Below are positions 1-24,618 of a stretch of DNA of 64,000 bases, piece after piece. Source of the stretch: Blastococcus litoris. Lineage in GTDB: Bacteria > Actinomycetota > Actinomycetes > Mycobacteriales > Geodermatophilaceae. Where the stretch lies: assembly GCF_003075095.1 (NCBI RefSeq), contig NZ_QCZF01000002.1:310001-374000 (forward strand), read 5' to 3'. The notes below the pieces were generated by a model. The model had not been told where the DNA came from. It ran no database searches and worked only from the letters and a program-made list of their open reading frames with translations. Made by a program: the position numbers and the translations under genes. The number at the start of each line of letters is the position of its first letter. Positions within the stretch are counted from its first letter, which is position 1.

Positions 1-221
1 GCCCTGGGCTTCCGCGTCTGACACCCTCATCGCATGCCGACTGCATGGATGAGGCGGGAGTCCACTCCGAGGCCGTGAGACCGGGAGTGCAGGACTGCCG
101 CACTCAGCCGGGTCACGGCAGGCGCGGTCACCGTCCGGAGCAGCCCGTCGAGCGATACGCACCGGTCAACGGACGCACGTCGACGGCTTTATGGTCGTCA
201 AGCGGGGTCTGAACCGCGGTC
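1..221. other. Left edge, no gene recognised
   Basis: I see no convincing gene here. An imperfect inverted repeat (26-53, CTCAT ... GATGAG) is present, but its function is unclear. Confidence 0.4.
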
Positions 222-794
222 GTGCTCGTCTCGGGGGTGTTGGTCGTGGATTGGGGCTCTGTGCCGGACTGGCTGGCCGGTGGAGGGACGATCACCGCGC
301 TCGTGGCTCTGGGGGCGGAAGTGCGGCGGAACCGCCGAGCGAACGAGCAGCGCGGCCGGGAGGAGCGAGCCGCGGAAGCCCGTCGTCTCCAGGACGCGCG
401 CGAACAGCAAGCGCGCGGAGTGACGGCCTGGGTGGAGGCGACCCAGACGGAGGAGCGCGTCCAGAACGTGCACGTGGTGGTCGCCAATGCGACGGCATTC
501 GCAGTTTTCGACGTACGAGCTCGGCCGGAAGATCTGGGGCCACTGGAGGAGGCCGTCCTCCCCGTCGTGTCGCCCGGTCAGACCATGAGGACCAAGTCCT
601 GGCTGGCCGTCGAGGTCCCGGAGGGGTACTTCTTCCGCGCGTCGGTCACGTTCTCCGACGCCCATGGTGTCCGCTGGATACGGCAGGGCGCCGACGTCTA
701 CGAACTCACGTCTTCGCGATCCGAGCCCGCCGGCGGACGGCTGCCGGCTCAGACCTGGCTGAGCCACGTCGACAGCGTCGACCGGACGAAGTGA
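222..794 (+). CDS. Small membrane-anchored hypothetical protein
   Basis: I do not recognise the family. The 190-residue product begins with a short hydrophobic stretch (around residues 12-30), followed by a charged Arg/Glu-rich helical segment (about 32-65). A C-terminal half with alternating hydrophobic residues looks like a beta-sandwich facing one side of the membrane. The start is uncertain: GTG codons at 222 and 246 are in frame, and the run of G before 246 could serve as a ribosome site, so the mature start may be 246. Its 3' end overlaps by 46 bp the convergent end of the giant TPR/ATPase gene on the other strand, so the two genes share their terminal region. Codon use is less GC-biased than in most of the window, which fits an accessory gene. 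Confidence 0.6.
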   Translation: MLVSGVLVVDWGSVPDWLAGGGTITALVALGAEVRRNRRANEQRGREERAAEARRLQDAREQQARGVTAWVEATQTEERVQNVHVVVANATAFAVFDVRARPEDLGPLEEAVLPVVSPGQTMRTKSWLAVEVPEGYFFRASVTFSDAHGVRWIRQGADVYELTSSRSEPAGGRLPAQTWLSHVDSVDRTK

Positions 795-3700
795 AGGGCC
801 GGACGTTCGTCCTCGTCGGGGGCCAGCATGCGCGACATCATGCGGCGCAGGTCGTTGTCGACGCCCAGTTGTACGAGTTGGCGTACAGGCGAGCTCGTGT
901 CCGCGCAGCCGGAAGCTGACAACGGGTAGGGGTGCTCTCCATGCGGGTCGAGGGCCGCATACATGATCGCACCGAGGGCGAATACGTCGTCGGCGTGCTT
1001 GTGCGTGCCACCTGCCAGCCAGCGCTCGGCCTGGGCTTGCGGCCGAAAGCCGTTGGGGCGGAACGCCGTCCAGGGAGTCCGTCGACCTCTGCTGCCGTAG
1101 ACCCAGTCGGCGAGGAACACGCCAGAGCTGCCGCGGTCGATCACGTTCTCCGGCGTGAGATTCCCGTGGACCCAGCCGTCGCGCTCCTCCGCCTCGACGA
1201 GTACCGACAGAGCCTGTTGCGCGAGACGGACCACGCGATGGGTGTCCCGTGCCTCCCACTCCTGCGCCCGGTGGGCAGCTCCCTCGGACAGCCGCCGTCC
1301 TGCGCAGTGCAGGACGATGGCCCAGCGGTCGACGCGCTCCACGAACATGCCGACGGACGACGTCTGCGGGTCGTGGCCGACGGGGACGGCGTCGGTCAGC
1401 CCTTCGTCCCCCGGTCCACCGCTGGGACGCAGGTTACGGGCCTGGTAGATGACGGAGTCGCGCTCGAGGCCGATGCTCTCGCCGAACTCGTCGACGTCGT
1501 TGCGGATGATGCGAAAGCCCCGGTCGCGCAGGGCGGCGAAGTCCCGGCGGTCTTCGAGAGCGGCTCGCCTCATCTCCAAGTGCAGGGAGTTCTCGACGAG
1601 CCACCGGCGGAGGAGGCCGTTCGCCACCGTGACCGCGCCGTCGGCGCTGGACTGCAGGAGCCCGAGGCGGACGAACCGGTTGATCCCCTCCTCGTAGTCC
1701 GTACCGACGAGGTCGATGAGCTCGCGCATCGTGAGCCCATCGCCGTCCTCGTCGTCGGAGCCGTACACCGAGGCCAGATTCGCGAGCACTCGCTCCTGGT
1801 ACTCGTGCTCGCGTTCCCGGCCGAGCAGATGCTCCACGACCGTGCGTCCGCGGCGCACCAGCGCGTCGGCCGCCTGCGCCACGATGTCGGAGGAGACGAG
1901 CCTCCGCCGTCGTTCGTTGAGGACGCGGGCGACCTCGGCTCCCAACAGGTGCACGTGGTTCGGGTATCCGGCGGTCAAGTCCCAGAAGGCTTGGTGCGCG
2001 CTGGCCAGTACATAAGCTCGGCCGCCCGGAGCCCCGAATCCGCGTGACACCAGTTCACGGGTATCGGCCTGGGAGAGGAAGCCGACGAGGTGCTCGGTGA
2101 TCTCCGCCGCGATATTGGTGTCCGCGAGACGGTCGCGCACGCTACGGAACGAGCAGGAACCGAGCAGCAGCAATCGCAGCGGATTGTCAGCATCCCCGTT
2201 GATGCTCCGCAAGGCACCTGCCACTGACGCCAGCGAGTCCACGGTGTCGGCATCGCTCTCGATCACCGCGTCGAGGAGGACCTGGACCTCATCGATGGCC
2301 AGGACGACCCCGGCCTCCCGCACCGCCTCGGGCAGCTGCCGCCTCACCCAGGAGGACAGAGCAGCCACCGATCGCCAGTCGTCCGGTCCCGGCCGCTGCA
2401 CACCCCATCCGCTGATCTCGCTCTCGAAGTACACCGCCTCGGCGATGTGCGCGAGCAGCCCGTGACTTCCGCGGAAGGTGTCGCCATCGAACACCACGAA
2501 CCGCGGTCCCGAGGGTTCGCCGCGGGAGAGATGGCGGCAGCGGTGGACGAGTGATGTCTTGCCAACCTGACGAGGGCCCCCGACGAACATGATCTGTGCC
2601 CGCTGGCCGTAGTGGTCGGTGATCGCGGAGATGTCGCGTTCGCGTCCGACGAACAGCCCCTCGGGGACGGGTTGCGTCGGAGCGAAGGGCACCACGAGCG
2701 TTTCGGGTTGACCGATCGACCGTCCCCGTGGCCGCTTGCGGCCGGCGCGCGCCCGAGCCATGCCGCGGCGCCCGTCCTTGTCGGTGTAGCGCACCATGAT
2801 CGTCGGAGAACGGAGATCGCCGCCCAAGTCCTGCGCTGCGAACTCGATGGGGACGAGCTCCTCCTCGCCTCCGGCCAGATCACGCACCGGGACCGTCTGC
2901 TTGCCGATGGAACAGACGATGCCGGTCAGCGGTCGACGGGCGGCCAAACGCAGGAGGACTTCGACAGAGCCGTCCTGGGTGAGCCCGACGTACACCTGTT
3001 CCGGCTGCATCAGCCCGAACTTCGCGGGCAAGGGATCGCGGTTGGCATTGAGCGCCGACAGGAAGTTGCGAGCTTCCTCGGAGTTCGGCGACAGGGCCAG
3101 CGCGTCTACGGCCCGCTGTGTCGCCTCCGGTAGGTGACCGAGGAGGTAGTGCAGCTTCGCCTGCGCCAGCACTACCTGCGCGTTCTCGCTGGAGGCGGTC
3201 AACATCTCGAGGGCCCGGGTCTCTCTCCCCGCCGCCGCAGCGACCGGGACCAGTCCAAGGGTCTCGGTCCCGTTGAAGGGCCGTTCGCGGACAAGTCGTT
3301 CCAGGACATCGAACGCCTCGTGAGCCTCGTCCGCGTCGGCGAGCAGCCTCGCGTGCATGAACCAGGAGGCCCGCCCCGCCGCCGGCAGGTTGTCGAGCGC
3401 CAGCCGGCTGTGCTGCACGGCCCGCTCAGGTGCGAGCTCGCCGTTCTCGACGGCATCTCTCAGCCGTTTGACGAGAGTGCCGTAGGACGCATGGTCGACG
3501 GGCAGCGCGTCGAGCGCCATGACGGCGGTGAGTTCACGGACGTCGCGTTGACCCGGGCGAGCGGGGGGGCGCAGGCCGACGTGACTGAGGACGCTGTTGC
3601 GCGCCTGTGCTTGCGCTTCTCCGAGTGCACTCGAGTTGACCCGTTCGGCGTAGAGGAACCACTCCGCAGCGGCGTCGTACTGGCCGATGTTGGTCAGTGC

Positions 3701-6700
3701 TGTAGCAACGTTCCACGCAATCGTGACGTGCGGGTACAGACCCTCCTCGTGCGCACGGTACAGCTGCAGTGCTTCTACTGGGCGCTTGTCCAGGACCAGC
3801 CAGCCCAAGGCGAGTCCGAAGACCACCGGGTTCCTTTCCTGCGCAACAGCCACGAGCGCGTCGGCGATGTCGCCAGGAGCTCCGTCCCGGGCGTTGCTGG
3901 AGAGGACCGCATCGGTGAGCGCCCGCGGCGCCGAGCGCGGGAGCGACATCCGGGCGATGAATGGCTCCGGAATCGTCACCGGAGCCAGCGGCCGCACGTC
4001 GATCGGGGGTGTGGTCGGGAACTCCTGCCGGCGCAGCGCGGACGCCTCGTCCGCGTCCCCACACTCGCGGAGGATGCGTTGCAGCTCGAAGACGACCCGA
4101 CCGCGGGTGTGCTCGGGCAGAGACGGTAGCGCCGCGCGGAGCAAGGCCCGGGCGTCTGGCTCGACCGGCACCGGCTGGCCGATCGACCGGTCGTGCAGGT
4201 ATGCGGCCAGCTGCACCAGGGCGACGGGATCGCCGGCGGCGACCATGACCTCGAAGATGCGACGGCGGCCGGCCGAGGACTCGAGCCGGTTCCTGCTGTC
4301 GACCAGCGCCTCCACGAATGCCCTGGCGACCCAGGACGCGTTGGGCTGCACCGTCGCCAACGTCTCGGCGAGCGTCAGCACCTCCCCGCGGTCCAGGTGC
4401 TGACGCACCGCGCGGATGAAGTCCTGGCGGTCGAGGTTGCCGCCGCTGAGCAAGCGGTTGACGACGTCGGGCTGGATGTTGGGTCCGCGAAGCAGGGTGG
4501 CCGCGCGCCGGTCCTGAGCCGCGAGTTCGCTCGCCTGGTCGTGCAGCCGGGCGAAGTCCGCGCTCGTGTCGGATGCACGGGAATCGAGCTCGTGGGCCCG
4601 GGTCAGGGCGTGCAGCGCGAGCCGCGGCTGAGCGCACGACACACCCACCCGAGCCGTCTCCAGATAGTGCTTCCACGTGGCGGCGCCGAGACGATCCAGC
4701 TCTCCCACGAGTGTCTCGGCGGCCCGCCAGTCACCCGTCGTGCGCAAGATGCGGAGCAGCAGGAACGCGCCGGGGGACTTCGGCTGGGTCTGGAGAAGAG
4801 CGCGGAGGCGAGTGATGGCTCCGGGGGCGTCCCCGGCTTCGAACTGCTGGCGGGCCAGCTGGACGACCTCCGGCGTACCCGGTCGCTGCGCTGCTACGAG
4901 CGTCCCTGTGGGAGGGCCGGCCGGCTCGACGGCCTGCGGGCTGTCCCTCACCAAGGCACGGCGTTCGAGGTACCGCCCGCACTCTTCGGCCTGCACCGGG
5001 CGCGGGGTGGGTTGCCTCTCCAGGAAGGCACGCAAGAGATCCTCGGCGCGCGCGTGGTCGCCGGTGCGCTCGCACGCGACAGCCCCGTTCCACAGCGCGA
5101 GGGGAGGCAGCGCGGCGATCGTCTCCGCCGGGAGGGAACCAACGATTTCGTGGACCCGCTGCCCGTGACCGGCGCGGAGCAGATACGCGAATGCCCAGGT
5201 GTGTCCTCCGGGCAGGCCTTCGCCCACCAGAGCCAGGCAGGCGTCTGCCGCTGCCAGCAGGTCCCCGTCGTTGGCAAGCTTCCGCGCGGCCGCGACCGCG
5301 TCCTTGAACCGCGGGGCGACCGGCGCGGTCGGCAGAAGTTCGTGCAGGCAGTAGCCGTCGTCGGACGGTGGGAGCAGAGCAGGCCGGCTGAGCTCGGCAC
5401 CCAGCTCCACCCCTATCTCCGCGCCCCGCGGGACTTCCGTCGCCGTGACCGGGCCGTCGGCCGATCGGACGAGATCGTCCAATTGGGGCACCTCGCGCCG
5501 AGCCTCGTCGATCTCCGACGGCGAACCGTTGGCGAGGATGCGGTCGGCGACGGCCTTACGGGCCACAGGGTCCGGTGACTCGCGGATGATGCCGAGCCAC
5601 AGGCGCCAGCGATCACGCCACGGTGTGGCGCTGTCGTCGGCATCGGCTGGGGGAGCTGCACGTGGGCCTGCTCCGGCCGGACCCGTGGCGCTGCCGCGGG
5701 CAGGCGCGGATGCGTTCCCCGACGGTTGCCGCTCGGCCTGCGGGGCGGAGCTCGCCCCCTCCGCGTCGAGCAGTTCGGACAGCGAACCCACGAGCAGGGT
5801 GGCGCCGTCGACGTCCTCGGCGTCGAGCCTGTCGTCGAGCGCGGCGAGCAGGCGCTGCACCCGTTCGTCCGTGCCGGAGTTCACCGCCCGCTCGCGCAGG
5901 GCTGTCGATTGCGTCCGGAGCGTCCGTACGGCGGCCCCCCGTTGGACGGTCATCTCCGCTTCCCGGAGCCAGTCCTCGGCCTCGGCGACCATGCCCCAGG
6001 CAGCACTCTCCTGGACTTCGCCGAGCATGTCTCGCACGGTGGTGTCAGCCAAAGGGGAGCTGAGGAGGTCAGCCGCCCGTTGGAGCAGGGCGCCGGTGGC
6101 GGGGGCATCGGCAGCGAGGCGTTCCCGAGCCCAGGCCGACAGCGGCGAGAGGACGGATGCGACCACCGCCAACGGGCCGCAGGTCCGCGTGTCCGGATTC
6201 CGGGCGTCGGCCAGGATCCTGGAGAGCAGCGCAGCATCGGGCAGGTCGTCGACGGCGTCGCTCGCGGCGGCCCCGACGACCGTCCGGAAGGTGGCGATCT
6301 CCGAGGCGGAGACACGCCGTGGCCGTGGCCCGTCGGGCAAGGCGCGCAAGGCCATGGCGGCGCGGGCGAGGGCGCGGGCGGACTCCTGGAGGTCAGCTGC
6401 ACGTCGCTCGATGGCCGGCCACCGGTTGCCGTTGCGCGGGACGGTCCGCTGCGGGTCGGCGCGCGCTGCGAGCGCGCCGGGATCCAGCTGCAGAAGGTCG
6501 TCCGCGTCCAGGTCCGCCCCGCTGTCGATCGCGCCCAGGAAGTGCTGCACGCTCTCGATGAGCAGCGCTTGATGCATGTCCGGTGATGCCGGGAGCGGTC
6601 GGTCGCCATGGCGCCGTAGTGCCTGCAGACGCGAGCTGTACTCCGCCTCGACCGCCAGCCGCGCCATGGTGCGGGGTTCAGCCTCACGCACGAGGCCGGT

Positions 6701-7078
6701 CAAGAAGGATTTCTCCTCGGCGGAGATCTGCTGCTGGACGAAGAAGTTGCCGGTCAGCGGGGCGCCGGTGTAGGCGAGGGCCCACCAGTCGACGGCCTGC
6801 TCGAGCCCAGGCACCTCTCTCGTCGAGCTCGACGTCGCCAGCAGCGCCGCCAGTTTGAGCTCGTCGACGGGCGCCGCGCCGTCGATCAGCCGATGGACGT
6901 GCAGGCCCCGCAGGCACAGGAGCAAGAAGGGTGCAGCGGACTCCAGGTCGGAGGCAGGCACAGTACGGCCGGCCACCAGGCCGTGGAGGACGTCAGCCAA
7001 CGTGGAAGCCAGACGCTCAGGGTCCGGCTCCCACTCCTGGTCCCCGACGAGTCGAGGGCCGTCCCCCTGGCGCGACAT
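749..7078 (-). CDS. Giant TPR - STAND-like ATPase - pseudokinase protein
   Basis: This 2109-residue cytoplasmic protein has three parts. Residues about 1-1400 are almost entirely helical, with TPR-like repeats clearest from about 580 to 1390. An AAA_16/STAND-type NTPase follows: an FVGRE entry motif at 1476-1480, Walker A GPRQVGKT at 1501-1508 and a Walker B Asp-Glu at 1596-1597. The C-terminus (about 1860-2109) is shaped like a Ser/Thr kinase. It keeps a PEN motif (1976-1978), a DFG-type Asp (ADW, D1991) and a DVFALG helix (D2031). The catalytic HRD loop reads HGN (1971-1973), the glycine loop near G1870 is degenerate and no VAIK lysine is seen, so it is probably catalytically dead. I chose the ATG at 7078 because the upstream GTG (7090) lies inside a TAGTGT -10 box. 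The architecture suggests a regulated scaffold or sensor ATPase, possibly in conflict or defence. That role is inference. Confidence 0.8.
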   Translation of the reverse strand: MSRQGDGPRLVGDQEWEPDPERLASTLADVLHGLVAGRTVPASDLESAAPFLLLCLRGLHVHRLIDGAAPVDELKLAALLATSSSTREVPGLEQAVDWWALAYTGAPLTGNFFVQQQISAEEKSFLTGLVREAEPRTMARLAVEAEYSSRLQALRRHGDRPLPASPDMHQALLIESVQHFLGAIDSGADLDADDLLQLDPGALAARADPQRTVPRNGNRWPAIERRAADLQESARALARAAMALRALPDGPRPRRVSASEIATFRTVVGAAASDAVDDLPDAALLSRILADARNPDTRTCGPLAVVASVLSPLSAWARERLAADAPATGALLQRAADLLSSPLADTTVRDMLGEVQESAAWGMVAEAEDWLREAEMTVQRGAAVRTLRTQSTALRERAVNSGTDERVQRLLAALDDRLDAEDVDGATLLVGSLSELLDAEGASSAPQAERQPSGNASAPARGSATGPAGAGPRAAPPADADDSATPWRDRWRLWLGIIRESPDPVARKAVADRILANGSPSEIDEARREVPQLDDLVRSADGPVTATEVPRGAEIGVELGAELSRPALLPPSDDGYCLHELLPTAPVAPRFKDAVAAARKLANDGDLLAAADACLALVGEGLPGGHTWAFAYLLRAGHGQRVHEIVGSLPAETIAALPPLALWNGAVACERTGDHARAEDLLRAFLERQPTPRPVQAEECGRYLERRALVRDSPQAVEPAGPPTGTLVAAQRPGTPEVVQLARQQFEAGDAPGAITRLRALLQTQPKSPGAFLLLRILRTTGDWRAAETLVGELDRLGAATWKHYLETARVGVSCAQPRLALHALTRAHELDSRASDTSADFARLHDQASELAAQDRRAATLLRGPNIQPDVVNRLLSGGNLDRQDFIRAVRQHLDRGEVLTLAETLATVQPNASWVARAFVEALVDSRNRLESSAGRRRIFEVMVAAGDPVALVQLAAYLHDRSIGQPVPVEPDARALLRAALPSLPEHTRGRVVFELQRILRECGDADEASALRRQEFPTTPPIDVRPLAPVTIPEPFIARMSLPRSAPRALTDAVLSSNARDGAPGDIADALVAVAQERNPVVFGLALGWLVLDKRPVEALQLYRAHEEGLYPHVTIAWNVATALTNIGQYDAAAEWFLYAERVNSSALGEAQAQARNSVLSHVGLRPPARPGQRDVRELTAVMALDALPVDHASYGTLVKRLRDAVENGELAPERAVQHSRLALDNLPAAGRASWFMHARLLADADEAHEAFDVLERLVRERPFNGTETLGLVPVAAAAGRETRALEMLTASSENAQVVLAQAKLHYLLGHLPEATQRAVDALALSPNSEEARNFLSALNANRDPLPAKFGLMQPEQVYVGLTQDGSVEVLLRLAARRPLTGIVCSIGKQTVPVRDLAGGEEELVPIEFAAQDLGGDLRSPTIMVRYTDKDGRRGMARARAGRKRPRGRSIGQPETLVVPFAPTQPVPEGLFVGRERDISAITDHYGQRAQIMFVGGPRQVGKTSLVHRCRHLSRGEPSGPRFVVFDGDTFRGSHGLLAHIAEAVYFESEISGWGVQRPGPDDWRSVAALSSWVRRQLPEAVREAGVVLAIDEVQVLLDAVIESDADTVDSLASVAGALRSINGDADNPLRLLLLGSCSFRSVRDRLADTNIAAEITEHLVGFLSQADTRELVSRGFGAPGGRAYVLASAHQAFWDLTAGYPNHVHLLGAEVARVLNERRRRLVSSDIVAQAADALVRRGRTVVEHLLGREREHEYQERVLANLASVYGSDDEDGDGLTMRELIDLVGTDYEEGINRFVRLGLLQSSADGAVTVANGLLRRWLVENSLHLEMRRAALEDRRDFAALRDRGFRIIRNDVDEFGESIGLERDSVIYQARNLRPSGGPGDEGLTDAVPVGHDPQTSSVGMFVERVDRWAIVLHCAGRRLSEGAAHRAQEWEARDTHRVVRLAQQALSVLVEAEERDGWVHGNLTPENVIDRGSSGVFLADWVYGSRGRRTPWTAFRPNGFRPQAQAERWLAGGTHKHADDVFALGAIMYAALDPHGEHPYPLSASGCADTSSPVRQLVQLGVDNDLRRMMSRMLAPDEDERPALHFVRSTLSTWLSQV

Positions 7079-7086
7079 CGCTGAGG

Positions 7087-7092
7087 ACACTA
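7087..7092 (-). promoter_or_regulatory. -10 box for a leaderless giant-gene transcript
   Basis: TAGTGT on the minus strand ends 8 nt before the ATG at 7078. This matches the TANNNT box of actinobacterial leaderless promoters and argues against the GTG at 7090 as the start. Confidence 0.45.
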
Positions 7093-7145
7093 GCCCGCTT
7101 CTGATGCCCCGGAACGCTCGTCGCGGCGAGTCGCGGCGGGGCGGC

Positions 7146-8954
7146 TCAACGCAGCTGCGCCACTTTCAGCCCGAACCCGGCGACCGGACGGCGCTCCCGC
7201 CGCATCCCGAGCGCCAGCAGCGCGCAGCCCACGACGAGCGCCGTGCCCAGCGGCCAGGGCAGCGCGCGCACGGTGAAGCCGAGCCCGAGGAAGAGCACCG
7301 TCCCGGCGCCGACCACCAGCGGCGCGCGCACGCCGGTGCGGGCCCCGGCCACCAGGACCGCCGCGGCGGCCAGCAGCACCCACACCGCCCGGTCGCCGTC
7401 CGACGTCGTCACGGCCAGGACGGCCGACGGCAGCGCGGCGGTGAGCAGGCCGGGTCCCCACGCGGGCCAGGACGGTCCGTCCAGGAGGCGCGGCCCGGCC
7501 GCGACCAGGAGCCCGATCGCCGCCGGCAGCGAGTACCACTCGACCGCGGCCAGGCCGGCGGCCGCGGCGAAGAACCATCCGGCGGCCACCAGTTGCACCG
7601 CCCCGCCCCGCCAGGCGGTCGCCGACGTCGGGTGCAGCGGATCGCCGGGGACGTGCGTGCGCCACGCCCAGGTGAGGGTGACGACGCCCTGGACGGCGAG
7701 CAGCACCGCCAGCGTCGTCCGGTGGTGCTCGACGCGCAGCAGCGTCGCCGCGGCCAGCGAGCAGAGCGCGGCCGCGCGCGCCGTCGCACTGCGGGACGAG
7801 GCGTCGAGGCCCGCGCCGACCGTCATCGCCACGCAGTAGAGGACCGTCAGCAGCACGCCAACGGCGACCGGGCCGAGCAGCCCGTCGGGCAGGGCCAGCA
7901 GAGCAGCGCCGGCCAGGCAGCCGATCGCCGTCGGCAGGGCCACGGGCCGGTCGGCGGGACGTCTCGCGGCGACCAGCACCGTGGGGAGCGCGGTGAGCAG
8001 GAGCAGCAGGCTCAGCTCCGACCACCGCTCGCGGCCGACCAGCTGCACGATGGAGAACAGCGCCATCACGGTGCCGGCCGACACGGCGACCGGGAGGATA
8101 AGCCCGCGTCGCCAGCCGGTGAGGACGGCCGCCGCCGTGTTCGCCAACAGGACACCGGCGTACCCGGTGAGGGTCATCGCGAGGGTCCCCAGCGACGAGA
8201 ACGCCCCGGTCACCGCAGCCCCCGCGACGAAGCCGGCGAGGACCGGGACGGCGACCGGTGGACCGGTGAGGGGTTCGAGCTCCGCGCGGAGCCGGGCGAC
8301 CAGGAGGCCCGCGGCAGCAGCGACCATCAGGACGGCGGACAGCCACCGCTCCGCGCCGACTCCGTTCCACGCCGTGGACGACCCCCCGACGACCCCGGCC
8401 GCCCACCACGGCGCCGTGGTCACGAGCGCGACCTGCGCGACGACCCGGCGTGCGAACAGGGCGATCCCCAACCCGGCCAGCGCGACAGCGAGCAGGACCG
8501 CGGTCTCCAGGGCCTCGGGGACCACGTCGAAGGCACGGAGGACGGCCAGCTGCCCAGCGGCCCACGATGCCAGCGGCCAGCTCGCGGTGGTGGGCGCCAC
8601 CCGGTGCAGGCCGAGGAAGCCCGCGGCCAGGAGGGCGGCCCAGCCGGGTGCGCCCCCGAGCACCGGTGCGCCCAGGTCGGAGCCGGCGAGAGCGAGGCCG
8701 GCGGTCGACGCGGCCAGCGTCTCCTCGGAGCTGCGCAGGCCCGTCCGCGCTGCCCGCACGGAGAACCAGGCGGTCGAGGCTGCCAGCGCCAGCAGCAGCA
8801 CGCGGACGGGACCACCGCCGTACGCGGAGGCGACCGCCGCACCCGCGCTGACCAGCAGCACGGCTCCCACGCCGAGCAGGACCTGGGGCGGCCGCGCGCG
8901 GTAGGGCAGGGGAGGCAGCGGCGCCGTCCCGACCGTCCGGTCCACGCTGGTCAC
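7146..8954 (-). CDS. Polytopic integral membrane protein, paralogue of the next gene upstream
   Basis: This 602-residue protein is almost wholly hydrophobic, with roughly 15-20 predicted membrane segments broken by short Arg/Pro loops. No transporter or enzyme motif is visible. Near its N-terminus a PPQVLLGVGAVLLV segment, followed by an Arg-rich turn and a GLRSSEETLA motif, aligns with PQEVLLGLGALLVV and GLRATEEALA in the neighbouring 696-residue protein. The two are therefore tandem paralogues. The GTG start is preceded by TACCGT 6 nt upstream, which suggests its own leaderless promoter rather than strict dependence on the upstream gene. The giant TPR gene follows 67 bp downstream on the same strand. 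The function is unknown; families of this look occur in actinomycetes as uncharacterised permease-like proteins. Confidence 0.75.
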   Translation of the reverse strand: MTSVDRTVGTAPLPPLPYRARPPQVLLGVGAVLLVSAGAAVASAYGGGPVRVLLLALAASTAWFSVRAARTGLRSSEETLAASTAGLALAGSDLGAPVLGGAPGWAALLAAGFLGLHRVAPTTASWPLASWAAGQLAVLRAFDVVPEALETAVLLAVALAGLGIALFARRVVAQVALVTTAPWWAAGVVGGSSTAWNGVGAERWLSAVLMVAAAAGLLVARLRAELEPLTGPPVAVPVLAGFVAGAAVTGAFSSLGTLAMTLTGYAGVLLANTAAAVLTGWRRGLILPVAVSAGTVMALFSIVQLVGRERWSELSLLLLLTALPTVLVAARRPADRPVALPTAIGCLAGAALLALPDGLLGPVAVGVLLTVLYCVAMTVGAGLDASSRSATARAAALCSLAAATLLRVEHHRTTLAVLLAVQGVVTLTWAWRTHVPGDPLHPTSATAWRGGAVQLVAAGWFFAAAAGLAAVEWYSLPAAIGLLVAAGPRLLDGPSWPAWGPGLLTAALPSAVLAVTTSDGDRAVWVLLAAAAVLVAGARTGVRAPLVVGAGTVLFLGLGFTVRALPWPLGTALVVGCALLALGMRRERRPVAGFGLKVAQLR

Positions 8955-8960
8955 CTGGTC

Positions 8961-8966
8961 ACGGTA
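8961..8966 (-). promoter_or_regulatory. -10 box, leaderless promoter of the 602-residue membrane protein
   Basis: TACCGT lies 6 nt before the GTG at 8954, the leaderless spacing seen repeatedly in this window. Confidence 0.4.
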
Positions 8967-8993
8967 GGGCGGGCGGCGCAGCGTGGCACCCGC

Positions 8994-11084
8994 TCAGCGC
9001 ATCTGCGCGACCCAGGCCACCGCTTCCCGCGCCTGCTGGCGCCGGCGCTCGTAGGTGGCGCCGACGACGAGCAGCAGCAGCCCCGCGGTGCCGAGCGTGA
9101 CCCAGCGCGGCAGCAGTGGCGCGTAGGGCCCGAGCCGGCCGACGGCGACGAGCAGCAGCACGCCGGCGCCGACCACGAACGGTGCCTGCCGGTGCAGGAC
9201 GGTGCCCGCGACCGTGAGCAGCGCCGCCGCCGCGATCACGAGGACCAGCCGGAGCGCCGACGGCTCGGCGACGACGACCAGCGCCGAGGGGACCAGCGCC
9301 ACCCCGGCCGCCGCCCCCTCGGAGGCCCAGGACGGCGCCCCCGCCCGCAGCTGCGGCAGGGCCACGACCAGCAGCCCGAGCGCGGCGGGCAGCGTGTAGG
9401 CCTCCACCGTCTCGACGCCCGCCCCGCCGACCGCGATCCACGCGGCGACGACGAGGTCGGCCACCGCCACGACCCCCACCCAGCGGCGGGAGGCGACGAT
9501 CGCGTAGGCGCCGGCCGCCACGCCCGCGATGCCGAGCTGGACCGCGACCTGGCCCCATGCCCCGACGGCGCCGCTCGTCGCGCCCGCCGCCAGGCCCGCC
9601 AGCGCGCCCGCGCCGGCCGCCGTCCACTCCTCGGGGTGCCCGGTGCGGAGGGTCGCGAGCGCGAACGCGGCCGCGGCCAGCAGCGCGAGGAGCAGTCCGG
9701 CGACGGGAGCGGTGAGGACGTCGTCCGCACGGGCGAGCAGCACCGCGCATCCCGGGGCCAGGATCGACGCGGCGGTCGCGGGCGGGCGCAGCAGGGGGAG
9801 CCGGACCGCGGCCAGGGCGGCGGGCGCCGTCGCGACCAGCGCGAGGACGGCCAGCTCCGCGTAGCGCCGGTCCTCGGCGAGCAGCAGCGCGTGCGCGCCG
9901 GCCAGGAGCCCGCCAGCGGCCACGAGGGCGGCCGTGGGAGCGGTCCGGGGCGCGGTGAGGACGGCGGCCGCGAGGGCGCCCAGGCCGACACCGGCTGCCA
10001 CCCACCAGCCCTGGTCACCGGCCGCCCTGAGCGAGCCGGCCAGCGCGAGGCCCACCACGGCGCCGACCGCGCCGGGCCGGAGCTCGGCGAAGCGGGGGAC
10101 GGGGCGCCGGCGGTCGGCCACCAGCGCCGCGGCTCCGGCGAGCACCAGGACGCCGGTCGCCGCCCAGGAGTCGCCGACGCCGCCGACCCACGCGGTCGCC
10201 AGACCGCCGAGCGTGCCGACCACGGCGAGGACCGCAGCGAGGACCGTGGCGACAGGCGCCAGCGGACGCCGCAGGCGGACGGCCGCCACCAGGTCCACGG
10301 CGGCCGTCCCGAGCGCGACGGCGACCCCGGCGGGGCCGGTGAGCAACGCGCCGGTGAGGAGCAGGAAGGGCAGCGGCTGGGCGGCGAGCAGCGCGGCCAG
10401 CGGCCAGGTCGCCGTCGTGCGGGTCAGCCGCCCCAGGGCGAGCGCGACCACCACGACGACGGCGGAGGAGACCGCCCACCAGACGCGCAGCGGGACCTCC
10501 TCCAGCCGGAAGAGGCCGAGCGCCCGGGCCGCGCCGAGGTCGATGGCCAGCAGTGCCGCGCCCGCCGCGGCGAGCGCCTCCTCGGTGGCGCGCAGGCCGC
10601 GCCGGGCGGTCACGGCCGAGGCGGCGCAGGCGGCCGCGGTGGCCGTGAGCATGACGCCCGCCTGGAACGCCAGCCCGAACCGGGTCCACGCGACGGCGAC
10701 GAAGGTGATGGCGGCCGCGACGACCAGCAGCGCCCCCAGCCCGAGCAGGACCTCCTGCGGGCTGAGCCGGCGCCGCGGTGTGGCCGGTGGTGCGGGCGCC
10801 GGCGGGCGCCACGGCGGAGGCGCGGCGGGCTGCGGCGGCACCCAGGTCGGGGGAGCGGCCGGGACGGGAGCCGCGGCACCCGGCGCGGTGGCGCGCAGCG
10901 TGGCCAGCAGCTGGTCCCGCTCGCGGGCCAGCTCGGCCATCGTCGTCCCGATCCGCGCCACGACCAGCGCGGACTGCAGCGCGGCCGGCAGACCGCAGGA
11001 GGGGCACGGACCGGGGCCGATGCCACCCACCGGCCGCCCGCAGACCGGGCAGGTCGGCACCCACGGGGCCCCGTGCGGGTTCAT
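8994..11084 (-). CDS. Zinc-ribbon polytopic membrane protein
   Basis: The 696-residue protein starts with a four-cysteine zinc ribbon (C12, C15, C27, C30). A helical stretch and a Pro-rich linker (about 70-110) lead to about 18-20 membrane segments. The membrane part is paralogous to the 602-residue product just downstream, which lacks the zinc ribbon. The ATG at 11084 was chosen because the ribbon begins immediately after it; an in-frame TTG at 11138 would only add a poorly conserved-looking extension. The two genes are 39 bp apart and probably co-expressed. The ribbon could bind a partner or nucleic acid at the cytoplasmic face, but nothing in the sequence fixes a substrate. Confidence 0.75.
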   Translation of the reverse strand: MNPHGAPWVPTCPVCGRPVGGIGPGPCPSCGLPAALQSALVVARIGTTMAELARERDQLLATLRATAPGAAAPVPAAPPTWVPPQPAAPPPWRPPAPAPPATPRRRLSPQEVLLGLGALLVVAAAITFVAVAWTRFGLAFQAGVMLTATAAACAASAVTARRGLRATEEALAAAGAALLAIDLGAARALGLFRLEEVPLRVWWAVSSAVVVVVALALGRLTRTTATWPLAALLAAQPLPFLLLTGALLTGPAGVAVALGTAAVDLVAAVRLRRPLAPVATVLAAVLAVVGTLGGLATAWVGGVGDSWAATGVLVLAGAAALVADRRRPVPRFAELRPGAVGAVVGLALAGSLRAAGDQGWWVAAGVGLGALAAAVLTAPRTAPTAALVAAGGLLAGAHALLLAEDRRYAELAVLALVATAPAALAAVRLPLLRPPATAASILAPGCAVLLARADDVLTAPVAGLLLALLAAAAFALATLRTGHPEEWTAAGAGALAGLAAGATSGAVGAWGQVAVQLGIAGVAAGAYAIVASRRWVGVVAVADLVVAAWIAVGGAGVETVEAYTLPAALGLLVVALPQLRAGAPSWASEGAAAGVALVPSALVVVAEPSALRLVLVIAAAALLTVAGTVLHRQAPFVVGAGVLLLVAVGRLGPYAPLLPRWVTLGTAGLLLLVVGATYERRRQQAREAVAWVAQMR

Positions 11085-11202
11085 GGGGGCATCCTGGCGT
11101 GCCACGAGACCGCGCGGTGCCGATGATCGCGGCAACACGCCCGCGCGGGTGATGCCGCCGATGTCACCACGAAAGCGTTCGGAACATCACCCGGTGAGCG
11201 CC

Positions 11203-12933: not shown

Positions 12934-13584
12934 TCAGCCGGCGGGTGGGCTGTCTGCGGAGGCGATCACCGCGAGCAAGGAGGTGGTCGCGTCATCGCTC
13001 TGCACCGCTCCCACGCCGGGATGCCGCGAGTACTGATCGGGAGCGTCCATCAGGGCGAGGGCCTGTCTGGCGAGATCCGCAGCGGTGCGGTTCTCACCCC
13101 GGGCCGAGGCGATCCGGGCCGAGGCCGTGAGATAGCGGAAGCGGTTCGCGTAGAAGGCGCTGACCGAACTCTGGTCGGCCCCGGCCAGCGTCGCCGCCGC
13201 ATCGTCCGCCCGACCCCGGTCCAGCAGCACCTCGGCGAGCGACACCTCGGTCATGCCCATCGTGCCGTTGAGGGGTCGGAAGGTCAGGACGAGGCGGTAC
13301 CGACGCTCCGCCTCGTCGAGCCGGCCGCGCTTCCGGGCCACGCCGCCCAGGCATTCGTGCACGTAGCGCACGAAGAAGTCGCCCGGGTGCTCGCGCAGGA
13401 AGCGCTCGTACAGCCCCACTGCCTCATCGAGGAGGCCGGCGTCCTCGAGCGCCGCTGCCTTGATCTTCAGGTACTGCGATCGCGAACCCCGTGATCGACC
13501 GAGGCGCTGCTCGAAGTCGGCCCGCGCGGCAGCATCCCAGTCCCGAGTGCGGTACCACTGCTCCACGAGCGGCACCCTGGGCAA
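12934..13584 (-). CDS. TPR-repeat protein
   Basis: The 216-residue soluble protein consists of helical hairpins with TPR-like spacing (for example DEAVGLYERFLREHPGD and DEAERRYRLVL). It lacks a signal peptide and any catalytic motif, so it is most likely a protein-interaction module. The start is unsettled: the frame opens with TTG at 13584, and a GTG nine bases further in (13575) is equally possible. It is convergent with the ABC-F gene and has about 200 bp of uninformative DNA upstream, before the HTH gene on the other strand. No partner is identifiable from the neighbourhood. Confidence 0.65.
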   Translation of the reverse strand: MPRVPLVEQWYRTRDWDAAARADFEQRLGRSRGSRSQYLKIKAAALEDAGLLDEAVGLYERFLREHPGDFFVRYVHECLGGVARKRGRLDEAERRYRLVLTFRPLNGTMGMTEVSLAEVLLDRGRADDAAATLAGADQSSVSAFYANRFRYLTASARIASARGENRTAADLARQALALMDAPDQYSRHPGVGAVQSDDATTSLLAVIASADSPPAG

Positions 13585-13786
13585 CCGCGACGCCGGGTCC
13601 CTGCAGGCGGTTGCGCTCGTTCCCGTTCGCGTGGCCGCGCTCCGGCGCGTGGGTGATCATGGGGTCTCGGGATGCCGCGGTCAGCGGGACGGCGGCACCC
13701 GGTGGACGGACTGCCAACACCGGTGACCGGTACGGCCGGTCGAGCCCGGTGCTGACATGGGCCGGCGGCTGACACGGAGGGGAGTC

Positions 13787-14014
13787 ATGGCCGACTCGAG
13801 CACTGCGGATCTCGGCAAGGGCAAGCGGATCACCGGAGGGGACCGGTCGACGCTGGCCGATGATCTCCGCAAGCGCTACGACGGTGGGGAGAGCATCCGC
13901 TCCCTGGCGACGTCCACGAACCGGTCCTACGGCTTCGTCCACCGTCTCCTCTCGGAGTCCGGGGCGACACTGCGCAGCCGCGGTGGAGCCAACCGGAATA
14001 GTAAGAAGGCGTGA
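13787..14014 (+). CDS. Short helix-turn-helix protein, Rv1473A-like
   Basis: This 75-residue basic protein contains one helix-turn-helix (about 28-60: DLRKRYDGGESIRSL then RSYGFVHRLL) and an RGG-rich tail. The pattern recalls the small actinobacterial HTH family represented by Rv1473A next to Rv1473 and echA12 in M. tuberculosis, and the same neighbours occur here. The start at 13787 is favoured over an upstream ATG at 13757 by a GGAGGGGA ribosome site directly before it. Its stop overlaps the GTG start of the crotonase gene by 4 bp, so the two are translationally coupled. The DNA target is unknown. Confidence 0.75.
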   Translation: MADSSTADLGKGKRITGGDRSTLADDLRKRYDGGESIRSLATSTNRSYGFVHRLLSESGATLRSRGGANRNSKKA

Positions 14015-14793
14015 CCGCAGAAGACCTCGAGAACAACGGCTGGATCCGCACGAGCCGGGACGGCGCCGTCCTCACCGTCACCCTCGACCGCGCCGACCAG
14101 CTCAACGCCCAGACCCCGGCCACCTGGAACGCTCTGGCCGCCGTCGGCGACTCGCTCGACGACGACGTCCGCGTGGTGGTGGTGCGCGGTGAGGGGCGCT
14201 CCTTCTCCGCGGGCCTCGACCGCAGCCTGTTCAGCGCCGAGCGCTCGACCGACGGCGGGCTCGGCGAGCTCGGGCACATGTCCGCCGAGGACGCGCAGGA
14301 GCGGATCCGCACCTACCAGCGCGGGTTCCGGTGGCTCCGGTCGCCGTCCGTCGTGTCCGTCGCCGCGGTGCAGGGGCACGCGATCGGCGCCGGCGCGCAG
14401 CTGGCACTCGCCTGCGACCTGCGCGTCTTCGCCGACGACGCCCAGCTGCGCCTGCCCGAGGCCACGCTCGGCCTGGTGCCCGACCTGACCGGCACGAGCA
14501 CGCTCATGGAGCTGGTCGGCTACTCGCGCGCCATGGAGATCTGCCTGACCGGCCGCGCCGTCAAGGCCGCCGAGGCGCAGGCCATCGGGCTGGCCAACGC
14601 CGTCGTCCCGGCGGCGGACCTCGACGCGACGGTCGCCGACCTGGTCGCCGCGATCACCGCCGCGCCGGTCGCCGCCAGCCGGGCGACGGCCGCCCTCGTG
14701 CGCTCGGCCGTCCGCAACGACCCCGAGCAGCAGGACGCCGCCGAGCGCGCAGCCCAGGTGCGGCGACTGCACGAACTCGTCGGCAGGGGCTGA
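14011..14793 (+). CDS. Enoyl-CoA hydratase/isomerase family protein, EchA12-like
   Basis: A crotonase-fold enzyme of 260 residues, probably acting on acyl-CoA in fatty-acid degradation. The oxyanion-hole segments are visible: GEGRSFSAGLD (about 59-69) and GHAIGAGAQLALACDLR (about 122-138). The PEATLGLVPD segment (about 150) belongs to the active-site helix region. Its GTG start overlaps the stop of the HTH gene by 4 bp. Position next to Rv1473- and Rv1473A-like genes makes it the positional counterpart of M. tuberculosis echA12. The exact substrate and whether it is a hydratase or an isomerase cannot be read from the sequence. Confidence 0.88.
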   Translation: MTAEDLENNGWIRTSRDGAVLTVTLDRADQLNAQTPATWNALAAVGDSLDDDVRVVVVRGEGRSFSAGLDRSLFSAERSTDGGLGELGHMSAEDAQERIRTYQRGFRWLRSPSVVSVAAVQGHAIGAGAQLALACDLRVFADDAQLRLPEATLGLVPDLTGTSTLMELVGYSRAMEICLTGRAVKAAEAQAIGLANAVVPAADLDATVADLVAAITAAPVAASRATAALVRSAVRNDPEQQDAAERAAQVRRLHELVGRG

Positions 14794-14872
14794 CACACTC
14801 CGGCGGAAGAGCCCACCCCCGTCCGGCGTTGCCGGTGGGTGGCGGGACGTCCCCGCACGAGGAGGTTGTCGC

Positions 14873-16759
14873 GTGAGCACCCCGGCGATGGCCGCCATGC
14901 GTTCCTTGCGCAACGACCCGGGCGCGGCGTCCCGCGAGCTGCCGAAGGGCACCGTGCGGCGGGTCCTCGGCGTCGCCCGGCCCTACCGGCGGGAGCTGAC
15001 GTACTTCCTCCTGCTCGTGACCGGGTCGTCGGTGATCGGCGTCGTCACCCCGCTGCTCGCCGGCGACATCGTCAACCGCATCTCCCGGCTGGACGGGACG
15101 GCCGGAGACATCGTCCGCATCGCCCTGTTCATCGCCGGCCTGGCGGTGGTGGACGCCGCGATCTCCGTGGCGACGCGGTGGTTCTCCGCCCGCATCGGCG
15201 AGGGCGTCATCTACGACCTGCGCAGCAGGGTCTTCGAGCACGTCCAGCGGATGCCGCTCGCCTTCTTCACCCGCACCCAGACCGGCGCGCTGGTCAGCCG
15301 GCTGAACAACGACGTGATCGGGGCGCAGCGGGCGTTCACCTCCACCCTCTCCGGCGTGGTCTCGAACGTGATCGGCCTGGTCCTCACCGCCGGCGTGATG
15401 CTGACGCTGTCGTGGCAGATCACCCTGCTGTCGCTGGTGATGGTCCCGCTGTTCGTGCTCCCCGCGCGCCGCATCGGCAAGCGCCTGCAGGAGATCACGC
15501 GGGAGTCCTACGGGCTCAACGCGTCGATGAACGCGACCATGACCGAGCGGTTCAACGTCGCGGGCGCGCTGCTGGTCAAGCTGTTCGGTCGCCAGTCGTC
15601 GGAGGCCGAGGCGTTCCGCGGCCGCGCTGCCCGCGTCCGCGACATCGGCGTCCTCTCGGCGATGTACGGCCGCACCTTCTTCACCGCCCTGACCCTCGTC
15701 GCCGCACTGGCCACCGCGCTCGTCTACGGGCTCGGCGGCTGGCTGGCGTTCACCGGCTCGCTCAGCGCCGGTGACGTGGTGGCCCTGGCGCTGCTGCTGT
15801 CGCGGCTCTACGGCCCGCTCACCGCGCTGGCCAACGTCCGCGTCGACGTCATGAGCGCGATGGTCAGCTTCGACCGGGTCTTCGAGGTCCTCGACCTGCA
15901 GCCGATGATCCGCGAGGCGCCCGACGCCGTCCCGGTGCCCGCCGACGACCGGTCGATCGAGTTCGACTCGGTGTCCTTCAGCTACCCGTCGGCGCAGGAC
16001 GTCTCGCTGCCGTCACTGGAAGAGGTGTCCCTGCCCGAGCACGGGGGGCCGGTCGACGTCCTGCACGACGTCTCGTTCCGGGTGGAACCCGGCCAGCTGG
16101 TGGCCCTAGTCGGGCACTCCGGCGCCGGGAAGTCGACCATCGCCAACCTCGTGCCGCGCATCTACGACGTCACCGGCGGGTCGGTGCGGGTGGGGGGCAT
16201 CGACGTCCGGACGGCGACGCTCGACTCGCTGCGCGACTCGATCGGCGTGGTCAGCCAGGACGCCCACCTGTTCCACGACTCGATCCGGGCCAACCTGCTC
16301 TACGCCCGTCCCGATGCGGGCGAGACGGAGCTGTGGACGGCGCTGGAGGGTGCGCGGATCGCGGCACTCGTGCGGTCGCTGCCGGAGGGCCTGGACACCG
16401 TCGTCGGCGACCGCGGCTACCGCATGTCGGGCGGCGAGAAGCAGCGGCTGGCCATCGCCCGCGTCCTGCTCAAGGCGCCCGGGATCGTAATCCTCGACGA
16501 GGCGACCGCCCACCTGGACAGCGAGTCCGAGGTCGCCGTCCAGCACGCGCTGGACGCCGCGCTCAGCGGTCGCACGTCGCTGGTCATCGCGCACCGGCTG
16601 TCCACCATCCGGAGCGCCGACCAGATCCTCGTCATCGAGAACGGTCGCGTCGCGGAGTCCGGCACGCACGACGAGCTGCTGGCCCTGCGGGGGAGGTACG
16701 CCGACCTGTACCGGACGCAGTTCGCGGCGGGCGCCGACACCCAGCCGGCCGTCGCCTGA
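14873..16759 (+). CDS. ABC exporter, fused permease-ATPase half transporter
   Basis: The 628-residue protein carries an ABC_membrane domain of six helices (about 30-330) followed by an ATPase domain. The ATPase has Walker A GHSGAGKST near 413-421, signature MSGGEKQR near 517, Walker B ILDEAT near 540 and the H-loop SLVIAHRLSTI near 575. Half transporters like this dimerise and export lipids or drugs. An insertion of about 25 residues rich in Ser/Leu/Glu sits between the first strand of the ATPase and the Walker A region. The GTG start has a strong GAGGAGG ribosome site. No partner half transporter is adjacent, so a homodimer is likely. The substrate is unknown. Confidence 0.92.
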   Translation: MSTPAMAAMRSLRNDPGAASRELPKGTVRRVLGVARPYRRELTYFLLLVTGSSVIGVVTPLLAGDIVNRISRLDGTAGDIVRIALFIAGLAVVDAAISVATRWFSARIGEGVIYDLRSRVFEHVQRMPLAFFTRTQTGALVSRLNNDVIGAQRAFTSTLSGVVSNVIGLVLTAGVMLTLSWQITLLSLVMVPLFVLPARRIGKRLQEITRESYGLNASMNATMTERFNVAGALLVKLFGRQSSEAEAFRGRAARVRDIGVLSAMYGRTFFTALTLVAALATALVYGLGGWLAFTGSLSAGDVVALALLLSRLYGPLTALANVRVDVMSAMVSFDRVFEVLDLQPMIREAPDAVPVPADDRSIEFDSVSFSYPSAQDVSLPSLEEVSLPEHGGPVDVLHDVSFRVEPGQLVALVGHSGAGKSTIANLVPRIYDVTGGSVRVGGIDVRTATLDSLRDSIGVVSQDAHLFHDSIRANLLYARPDAGETELWTALEGARIAALVRSLPEGLDTVVGDRGYRMSGGEKQRLAIARVLLKAPGIVILDEATAHLDSESEVAVQHALDAALSGRTSLVIAHRLSTIRSADQILVIENGRVAESGTHDELLALRGRYADLYRTQFAAGADTQPAVA

Positions 16760-16792
16760 CGGCGGGCCGGGGTCGGCTCCGACGCGAGCCGG

Positions 16793-18268
16793 TCAGAGGA
16801 GGACGTCGTGCGCGTCCCAGCCCCAGCCCACGACCCGGTGCGGGGAGACCGGTCCGCGAGTGGCCCCTGTCGGGTACAACCACCGCTCCCAGGAGCTGCG
16901 GTTCCGGGCGAACAGGTCGGGGACGCCGTCACCGGTGACGTCGGCCGTCGCGGTCAGCAGGTCGTGGCCGCTCCAGCCGGAGCCGAGGAAGCGCGGGGCG
17001 GCCCAGCTGCTGTCCGGCGCACCGGGGTAGAGCAGCAGGGTGCCGTCGGTCCGGTTCCGGGCCCAGAGGTCCGCGTGGCCGTCGCCGGTCACGTCGCCGG
17101 GGGAGACCAGCTGGTCGAAGCCCTGCCACCCGAAGCCCACCGCCCGCGGTGCCTGCCAGGTGCCGCCAGGGCCTCCGGGGTAGAGCACCAGGGTGCCGTC
17201 GGCCCTGTTCCGGGCCCACAGGTCCGGCAGCCCGTCGGCTGTGACGTCACCGGGTGCCATCAGGGCATCCATGCCCTGCCAGCCGATGCCCACCTGCCGC
17301 GGGGCGCCGAAGCTGCCGGCGCCGTCGCCCGGGTACAGCCACAGCACTCCCGAGGCGTCGCGTGCCCACATGTCCGCCCGGCCGTCCGCGGTCACGTCGG
17401 GGGTGATGACCATCGCGGTCATCGACTGCCAGCCGACGCCGACGACACGGCTCCCCAGCGACCCGCCGCTGCCGTCACCGGGGTACAGGAACAGCTGACC
17501 GGTAGCCCGCTGGCGGCCGAGGCCGTCGGGGATCGCGTCGCCGTCGAGGTCGCGGGACGCCGACGAGGCGGCGTTCTCCGGCCTGGAGGCCAGCGGCGGG
17601 CACGCGGTGTACCGGGGGCCGGTGTAGGCCGGGGCGAGCTCGTCGGCGTAGACGCGGCACGGTCCCCGGTCCTGCTGGGTGATGGCGGTGCCGGTCCACC
17701 ACGAGGTGCGCCCCATCGCGCCGTCCCAGCTCAGGCTGAAGTGGATGTGGTCGGTGTGCGCGTTCGGCCCGCTGTAGGGCCGCCAGCCGGCCGCGGCGTT
17801 GTTCGCCGACCAGATCGAGCGGTTCCAGATCAGGTACATGACACCCAGACGGCGTGCGTTCCCGCCCATGTTGCCGCCCGCGTCGGGGCCGACGAGCCAC
17901 TGCAGGACGGCCTCGGCGTGCTGGCGCTCGACGGGGTCGTTGACGTTGAGCATCCAGTCCCAGGCGCGCCCCTCCTTGTGCTCGCTGGTCCCACCGATCG
18001 AGCAGGCGCGCGTGATGCCGCCGTCGCGGCCGACGCCGTACGTGCTCAGGATGAGCGACCGGAGTGCGGCGGTGCCGGGCTGGGCGACCGGGCTGCAGGA
18101 GTTCTGCTCGTGGTACTCGGCGTACGGGTCCGGAGCGGTCTGCGGGGCCACCGGCGGAACGGGCGGCCCGCCGGCGTGAGCGGGAGCCGCGGTGAGGAGG
18201 ACCGTAGCCGCGGTCACGCAGGCCACCAGGACGGTGTACGCGGATCGGGTCGCGCCGAGGGGGAGCAT
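16793..18268 (-). CDS. Secreted M15-like peptidoglycan hydrolase with FG-GAP repeats
   Basis: The 491-residue protein has a Sec signal peptide (about 1-32, cleavage after AHA). Residues about 60-200 carry the VanY-type zinc signature SxHxxGxAxD (H97, D104) and an HTDHIH motif (171-176), so a D,D- or L,D-carboxypeptidase-like fold is probable. Residues about 245-491 hold five FG-GAP/VCBS-type repeats with DVTADG or DVTGDG calcium loops, each ending in a WARN or FARN element, probably forming a propeller. It faces away from the SnoaL-like gene, and a perfect 22-bp palindrome at 18359 lies 90 bp upstream. The same palindrome precedes the RipA-like gene, which suggests shared control of wall enzymes. 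Catalysis is inferred from motifs only. Confidence 0.82.
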   Translation of the reverse strand: MLPLGATRSAYTVLVACVTAATVLLTAAPAHAGGPPVPPVAPQTAPDPYAEYHEQNSCSPVAQPGTAALRSLILSTYGVGRDGGITRACSIGGTSEHKEGRAWDWMLNVNDPVERQHAEAVLQWLVGPDAGGNMGGNARRLGVMYLIWNRSIWSANNAAAGWRPYSGPNAHTDHIHFSLSWDGAMGRTSWWTGTAITQQDRGPCRVYADELAPAYTGPRYTACPPLASRPENAASSASRDLDGDAIPDGLGRQRATGQLFLYPGDGSGGSLGSRVVGVGWQSMTAMVITPDVTADGRADMWARDASGVLWLYPGDGAGSFGAPRQVGIGWQGMDALMAPGDVTADGLPDLWARNRADGTLVLYPGGPGGTWQAPRAVGFGWQGFDQLVSPGDVTGDGHADLWARNRTDGTLLLYPGAPDSSWAAPRFLGSGWSGHDLLTATADVTGDGVPDLFARNRSSWERWLYPTGATRGPVSPHRVVGWGWDAHDVLL

Positions 18269-18358
18269 GTTCCATCGCTTCCGGGGAGGGGGATGACAGC
18301 TATGGCCTCGTCACCCGCCGGGGTGTCCCTTGAGCGGATCCGCGCAGGCCGCGGCGCC

Positions 18359-18380
18359 GTCTCACCCCGAGGGGTGAGAC
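18359..18380. promoter_or_regulatory. 22-bp palindromic operator candidate, copy 1
   Basis: Two perfect 10-bp arms (GTCTCACCCC and its complement) surround a GA centre; one more base pair on each side also matches. An identical 22-bp element stands at 28033. It lies in a divergent intergenic region, so it is not a terminator. A further CACCC-type half-site follows at about 18391. Confidence 0.6.
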
Positions 18381-18480
18381 GAGGCGTGCGTCACCCCTGG
18401 CTCCCGACGGCGAGCGTCGGACGACGCGCCGACGGCGACCACTACCGTCACTCCTGTCCCGAACCGCACGAGGAGACGAC

Positions 18481-18945: not shown

Positions 18946-18952
18946 GCCGGTC

Positions 18953-19774: not shown

Positions 19775-19803
19775 GCCGGTCGCGGTCCTGCCATGCTCCC
19801 GCC

Positions 19804-20082: not shown

Positions 20083-20083
20083 G

Positions 20084-21528: not shown

Positions 21529-21541
21529 CAGGCGGCCAGCA

Positions 21542-24394
<2,853 letters not shown>

Positions 24395-24612: not shown

Positions 24613-24618
24613 TAGCGT
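24613..24618 (+). promoter_or_regulatory. -10 box, leaderless promoter of the PAP2 gene
   Basis: TAGCGT ends 8 nt before the ATG at 24627, with no ribosome site between. Confidence 0.5.

Follow-up and report, generated by a model that had tools for sequence, protein, structure and literature searches.

Results

Two convergent genes beside a suf cluster

The window, by which we mean the whole stretch of 64,000 nucleotides of Blastococcus litoris DNA that was analysed, carries close to its start a giant gene and a small convergent gene, which lie between a SufT-like gene and a gene for a membrane protein. The features discussed here are the following, with positions in the window and residues of the giant protein.

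22..7145, no strand: accessory insertion, flanked by the SufT-like gene (ends at ~21) and by the membrane-protein gene (stop at 7146)
222..794, plus strand: convergent small gene (190 aa), the last 46 bp of which overlap the 3' end of the giant gene
749..7078, minus strand: giant gene, 2109 aa; open frame from an ATG at 7078
5321..7078, minus strand: residues 1-586, without a recognised family (nothing at E up to 1 when the piece was scanned with Pfam)
4487..5083, minus strand: residues 666-864, TPR repeats (as a piece, TPR_14 and TPR_6 exceed their cut-offs, whereas TPR_19 and the CcmH-type model do not)
3041..3430, minus strand: residues 1217-1346, weak similarity to TPRs (E 0.001 with the LapB model)
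2747..2986, minus strand: residues 1365-1444, predicted all-beta domain (single-sequence AlphaFold2)
1598..2662, minus strand: residues 1473-1827, AAA_16/nSTAND1-type STAND NTPase plus the part behind it (Pfam scan of the piece)
2555..2578, minus strand: residues 1501-1508, Walker A, GPRQVGKT (sequence motif)
2288..2305, minus strand: residues 1592-1597, Walker B, VLAIDE (sequence motif)
770..1303, minus strand: residues 1926-2103, pseudokinase C-lobe (kinase profile, hhalign, shuffle control)
1160..1168, minus strand: residues 1971-1973, HGN replacing HRD (alignment with kinases)
1106..1108, minus strand: Asp 1991, equivalent of the DFG Asp (alignment with kinases)

An uninterrupted protein of 2109 residues at 749-7078 had been proposed in a sequence-only reading of this DNA, and this proposal was borne out; we add that the gene lies on the minus strand, where its 2109 codons contain zero stops, whereas stops interrupt the plus strand there. 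With an alternative in-frame start, a GTG at 7090, the protein would gain four residues. The GC content by codon position is 0.76/0.51/0.84, and this composition is that of a real gene. A search of the organism's own genome (4.63 Mb, 87 contigs) with the giant protein returned a single match, and no sigma-70-type promoter was matched within positions 1-9000 of the window. A 1423-aa open frame at 6855-11126 on the plus strand, antisense to two membrane-protein genes, is most likely a high-GC artefact.

Together, the giant and the small gene make up ~7.1 kb beside sufT, and tblastn detected no trace of either in the syntenic loci of relatives (0/20; these loci were fetched from the sufT side, and some are cut by contig ends). 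In eight of the 20, only about 60-140 bp (59-138) separate the matches to the SufT-like and membrane-protein genes; on these counts, membership of the giant gene in a housekeeping operon was rejected. Among the 48 window ORFs left after a filter for GC3 above 0.78, the small gene has the lowest GC3 (0.82) and the giant gene the third-lowest (0.84), whereas values of 0.90-0.99 were obtained for 18 genes taken for comparison (15 of these picked by hand) and of 0.83-0.89 for other window ORFs. Because both genes are missing from the relatives' loci and both are low in GC3, they form one accessory insertion and were probably acquired together. The small protein has a DWGSVPDW-type N-terminal stretch, and its N-terminal half has relatives on six viral contigs (four of these were inspected), which gives a mild hint of a mobile origin; the plasmid and phage collections held no relatives of it.

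The surroundings of the insertion appear to be housekeeping in character. Downstream lies a suf cluster with SufR-like, SufB, D, C, S and SufT-like genes, the SufR-like and SufT-like matches being under their cut-offs, and with an IscU/SufU-type gene identified by reading the sequence; upstream lie two SCO7613-type membrane proteins and an ABC-F gene, followed by mostly metabolic or unknown genes. The two membrane proteins, the ABC-F gene, ten ORFs of window 12934-25649 and six suf-side ORFs were scanned, the remainder of the locus (L002) was read by eye, and PADLOC covered the giant protein and three neighbours. None of the neighbours examined was recognised as a defence, nuclease, protease or phage gene, and none of those scanned as a MoxR, vWA or VMAP gene; membership in a MoxR-vWA system was rejected on this gene context. 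At the corresponding site, relatives carry an acetyltransferase-like gene (two loci), an AI-2E-type transporter (one) and an M50-type protease (one), all named by reading; one relative has a 3-kb cargo of lower GC, and two have RND-type pumps, again named by reading, between the two membrane genes. A defence island is unsupported, the neighbours being of suf, SCO7613, ABC-F and metabolic types and the relatives' cargo metabolic or transport-like. As a separate observation, the stretch from sufT to the ABC-F gene is variable in loci L057, L058, L061, L063, L067 and L070, with differing insertions in conserved housekeeping surroundings.

Repeats, a STAND ATPase and a pseudokinase in one chain

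About 1400 residues of helical or TPR repeats had been proposed for the N-terminal part of the protein, and only a portion of this proposal was retained. When residues 560-1376 were scanned as a piece, TPR_14 (27.1 bits; cut-off 23.5) and TPR_6 (26.6; cut-off 26.3) passed their Pfam thresholds, whereas in a scan of the whole protein both fell below them (22.8 and 22.1). The support is strongest at residues 666-864, with weaker matches reaching ~1346, and residues 1-586 match no Pfam family. A crude TPR consensus was counted once in the giant protein, against a mean of 1.27 over 200 shuffles; because this is no better than the shuffles, TPRs over the full 1400 residues are unsupported. A single-sequence AlphaFold2 model of residues 1365-2109 is poor overall (mean pLDDT 39) but shows the stretch ~1365-1444 as all-beta, with a pLDDT of about 50-67. 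This stretch matched neither Pfam (E up to 1) nor the PDB (E below 0.5), and the prediction only suggests a beta domain ahead of the ATPase.

Of the STAND ATPase, described previously as a complete STAND/AAA_16 NTPase with intact Walker A and B, the intact nucleotide-binding part withstood our analysis. AAA_16 scored 33.8 bits in the isolated piece, above its cut-off of 32.6, and 29.6 bits, below it, in the whole protein; nSTAND1 reached 25.3 bits in the piece, under its cut-off of 27.1, with positions 13-345 of the 379 in the model covered. Since GPRQVGKT and VLAIDE are both present, the giant protein can be classified by its motifs as a P-loop NTPase with Walker A and Walker B.

At the C-terminus, profile and alignments agree on a kinase-shaped fold with HGN for HRD, no VAIK lysine and an intact DFG-type Asp, just as had been read from the letters alone. 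Residues 1926-2103 scored 70 bits against a home-made profile of 17 Ser/Thr kinases, whereas 200 shuffles of the same C-terminal piece gave at most 2.2 bits. This profile was built from 17 of 18 loci in genomes of the same phylum; the remaining locus (L005) was missed by a motif filter and left out. Against five of the profile's kinases, hhalign gave the C-terminus a probability of 98.9%, and the best solved matches of a profile of those five are PknA and PknB. At the four catalytic positions that read Asp, Lys, Asn and Asp in every one of the 17 kinases, the giant protein has Asn1973 (for the HRD Asp), Thr1975 (for the catalytic-loop Lys), Asn1978 (kept) and Asp1991 (kept, in a DWV that stands for DFG). 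The position of the VAIK Lys is occupied by Arg in one alignment and by Pro in another, the latter made of the giant sequence with 26 of 29 trimmed loci (28 of 41 viral kinase loci plus L101), and the position of the helix-C Glu is Gln in the 17-kinase alignment; the N-lobe of this kinase-like end is too divergent to align. Thus, a kinase fold appears to be present in its C-lobe only, and the residues of an active kinase are missing: there is no HRD Asp, no catalytic-loop Lys and no Lys aligned at VAIK.

Other searches with the C-terminus recovered little beyond the fold. Pfam Pkinase scored 11 bits, far under its cut-off, and phmmer of the kinase-like piece against the PDB gave nothing at E up to 0.01. 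PADLOC matched MkoA (1.2e-10) and PD-T4-6 (5.9e-6), both over the kinase part only, and NCBIfam gave matches to lanthionine synthetase and MAD6, all under cut-off. Membership in any of these four families was rejected, the matches reflecting the common kinase fold. Pfam scans of the whole protein and of its pieces found no recognisable effector domain.

The architecture was found once

No full-length relative of the giant protein was found in the genome_contigs, viral_contigs, plasmids and phages collections, and residues 1380-1880 and 1-586 had no match in viral_contigs. The kinase alignment matched three loci in viral_contigs among 33 matched stretches, all in the kinase part, and PHROGs gave one weak match at the P-loop (1.2e-4), to a family of unknown function. 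Whole genomes were searched in overlapping samples, each with a different part of the protein and with the own genome excluded from the counts; since scoring was limited to 2 to 12 candidates per genome, distant relatives may have escaped detection. The NTPase part had no match in 393 genomes of the class (E 1e-8), and residues 900-1880 had none in 111 other genomes of the family (E 1e-3). Five of 97 relatives' genomes were matched, with query spans within the kinase part; 10/395 phylum genomes were matched by the kinase part and 9/395 by residues 1365-2109, in the latter case within the kinase part except for one NTPase-part match. Kinase-part matches that were read were ordinary kinases with HRD-type motifs. 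ATPase-part matches were mostly short: in the order, 14/396 genomes were matched by the NTPase part, partially and over short spans with the exception of one of 318 residues at 27%. Six of these 14 were extended and four of the six match by blastp; the proteins measure 396-995 aa, and three of them are regulator-like STAND proteins by reading. Across these partial samples of genomes, viral contigs, plasmids and phages, nothing with the same order of repeats, STAND ATPase and pseudokinase was returned.

A DNA pattern for FVGRE...GxRQVGK was found in six stretches of genome_contigs, and a stricter form in none of viral_contigs. Five of the six gave no tblastn match to the giant protein at E up to 1 and belong, by reading, to another ATPase family. 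The sixth (L080, Myxococcota) encodes a giant whose match is confined to 52 residues at the P-loop (38%, E 1e-4); the P-loop region alone is common to the two proteins. The Myxococcota giant has 2304 aa and an AAA_16-type P-loop near its C-terminus, under the Pfam cut-off. It lies in a RADAR-like locus of a Myxococcota MAG (L108:2227-14682; JAKLJY010000125.1) and may be an undescribed accessory of that locus, which also encodes a protein of 339 aa, an RdrB-like adenosine deaminase of 787 aa (E 1.7e-21) and an ATPase of 700 aa that is weakly RdrA-like (E 8e-4). Since it adjoins the RdrB-like and weakly RdrA-like genes, at least one defence-like locus contains a giant in which a P-loop of this kind comes late in the chain; this parallel is suggestive and is not evidence of homology.

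Discussion

In this report, we describe a giant actinobacterial protein that is real and unusual, that has so far been found once in our searches and that is built from known parts. The giant is probably a one-protein sensor, perhaps directed against viruses. We tentatively propose, at a probability of roughly 0.4, that it is a lone and probably horizontally acquired STAND switch with a partner-binding pseudokinase, for which immunity or growth arrest is the most likely role. Several lines of evidence argue for such a switch: both Walker motifs are intact, the AAA_16 domain and the TPRs rise above their cut-offs as pieces, the kinase C-lobe scores far above shuffled sequence with its catalytic Asp and Lys lost, and the gene belongs to an accessory insertion and resembles parts of conflict systems (PMC7159879). 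The same reading is weakened by the lack of defence genes among the neighbours examined, of a homologue in our searches and of an effector domain, by the cargo of relatives at the site, which is not defence-like, and by PADLOC matches limited to the kinase part.

In our model, the N-terminal superhelix would hold the ATPase off and recognise a foreign or stress-derived protein; upon recognition, the ATPase would exchange its nucleotide and oligomerise. The C-terminal pseudokinase would act as a binding surface and not as an enzyme. It could be a scaffold, bringing in an unlinked host effector, or a decoy for whatever normally attacks the cell's PknB-type kinases, and the response would most likely be immunity to phage or other invaders, or an arrest of growth directed against them. 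The earlier suggestion that the pseudokinase may be a binding module signalling to the ATPase fits this model.

The strongest competing explanation, which we consider rather unlikely, is a STAND protein of cellular, non-antiviral signalling or regulation, whose pseudokinase would dock on host kinases or their substrates. The size of the proteins that hold the nearest ATPase sequences (396-995 aa), the regulator-like character of three of them and the absence of defence context among the neighbours are consistent with a cellular role; however, no DNA-binding Pfam domain occurs in the pieces scanned, and the gene was found in none of the 111 other family genomes or the 20 syntenic loci, which argues against core regulation. 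What makes us prefer immunity to cell regulation is the accessory nature of the gene and its likeness to parts of conflict systems, although its neighbours give no proof.

It is improbable that the gene is a recent acquisition that has no selected function in its host and is heading to decay: its presence in a single genome among those searched and a GC3 under that of nearly all window ORFs listed would be expected of such a gene, but an open frame of 2109 codons with its nucleotide-binding motifs intact would not. In kinases, the DFG Asp and the catalytic-loop Asn bind metal, and both are kept here (Asp 1991 and Asn 1978), yet a non-canonical enzyme that transfers AMP, glutamate or another group is quite improbable, given that two alignments place no Lys at the VAIK position, that one places no Glu in helix C and that the N-lobe region is too divergent for alignment.

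The STAND switch that we propose shares its parts, and not its organization, with several known systems. Kaur et al. (2020, PMC7159879) describe actinobacterial MoxR-vWA conflict systems in which S/T/Y kinase modules mostly have disrupted catalytic residues, list TPRs and STAND-family ATPases among the further modules, and draw a parallel between inactive enzymes in conflict systems and decoys; inactive kinase modules in such systems are therefore already described. The ternary (VMAP) systems resemble the giant in their degenerate actinobacterial kinase module, TPRs and STAND-family ATPases, but there the kinase belongs to a vWA protein whose gene accompanies those of MoxR and VMAP, whereas all modules of the giant are in one chain. 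The iSTAND ternary systems of the same paper also place a STAND-fold ATPase in a conflict system; unlike the giant, with its intact Walker A and B, iSTAND is catalytically inactive, occurs alongside MoxR and vWA, and is hardly ever found in actinobacteria (PMC7159879). For related systems, nSTAND1 and kinase effectors are named in PMC8195603.

Mokosh MkoA and PD-T4-6, as represented in PADLOC, have a similar kinase C-lobe, but their other parts are unmatched in the giant, and the best stretch on the long MkoA protein covers only positions 81-280 of 1112. Avs and other bacterial NLR-like STAND receptors have an N-terminal effector and a C-terminal repeat sensor. The giant does not follow this order: its TPR region stands before the NTPase and its pseudokinase after, and it has no recognisable effector. 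What the two have in common is a single large STAND ATPase with repeats. The order of repeats, STAND ATPase and pseudokinase was not found in the titles, abstract openings and passages surveyed (PMC12931631 among them), a literature in which few subscription journals are represented, so it may already have been published; PMC13174449 had no bearing on the protein. The nomination of this protein as the best candidate for a novel system is weakened by the fact that actinobacterial conflict systems with inactive kinase, TPR and STAND modules have been described before and that none of the neighbours examined was seen to be a partner, nuclease or phage gene. If the gene serves immunity, surveys of defence islands would miss it, since it stands alone among housekeeping genes.

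A functional parallel may come from plants. Integrated domains of plant NLRs include kinase decoys. A switch ATPase with a kinase-like bait would work alike in the two cases, although the giant is bacterial and TPR-based, and we claim no homology. By analogy with plant NLRs that carry integrated domains (PMC9528084, PMC6570958, PMC4246468), the giant could be a hitherto undescribed one-gene actinobacterial immune receptor with a PknB-like pseudokinase as a built-in decoy, in which an invader protein directed at the host's kinases would bind the bait and the STAND ATPase would trigger the response; we regard this specific version as a long shot. If the giant is an immune switch, it would mean that bacteria resemble plants in joining an inactive kinase, as bait or as scaffold, to a switch ATPase.
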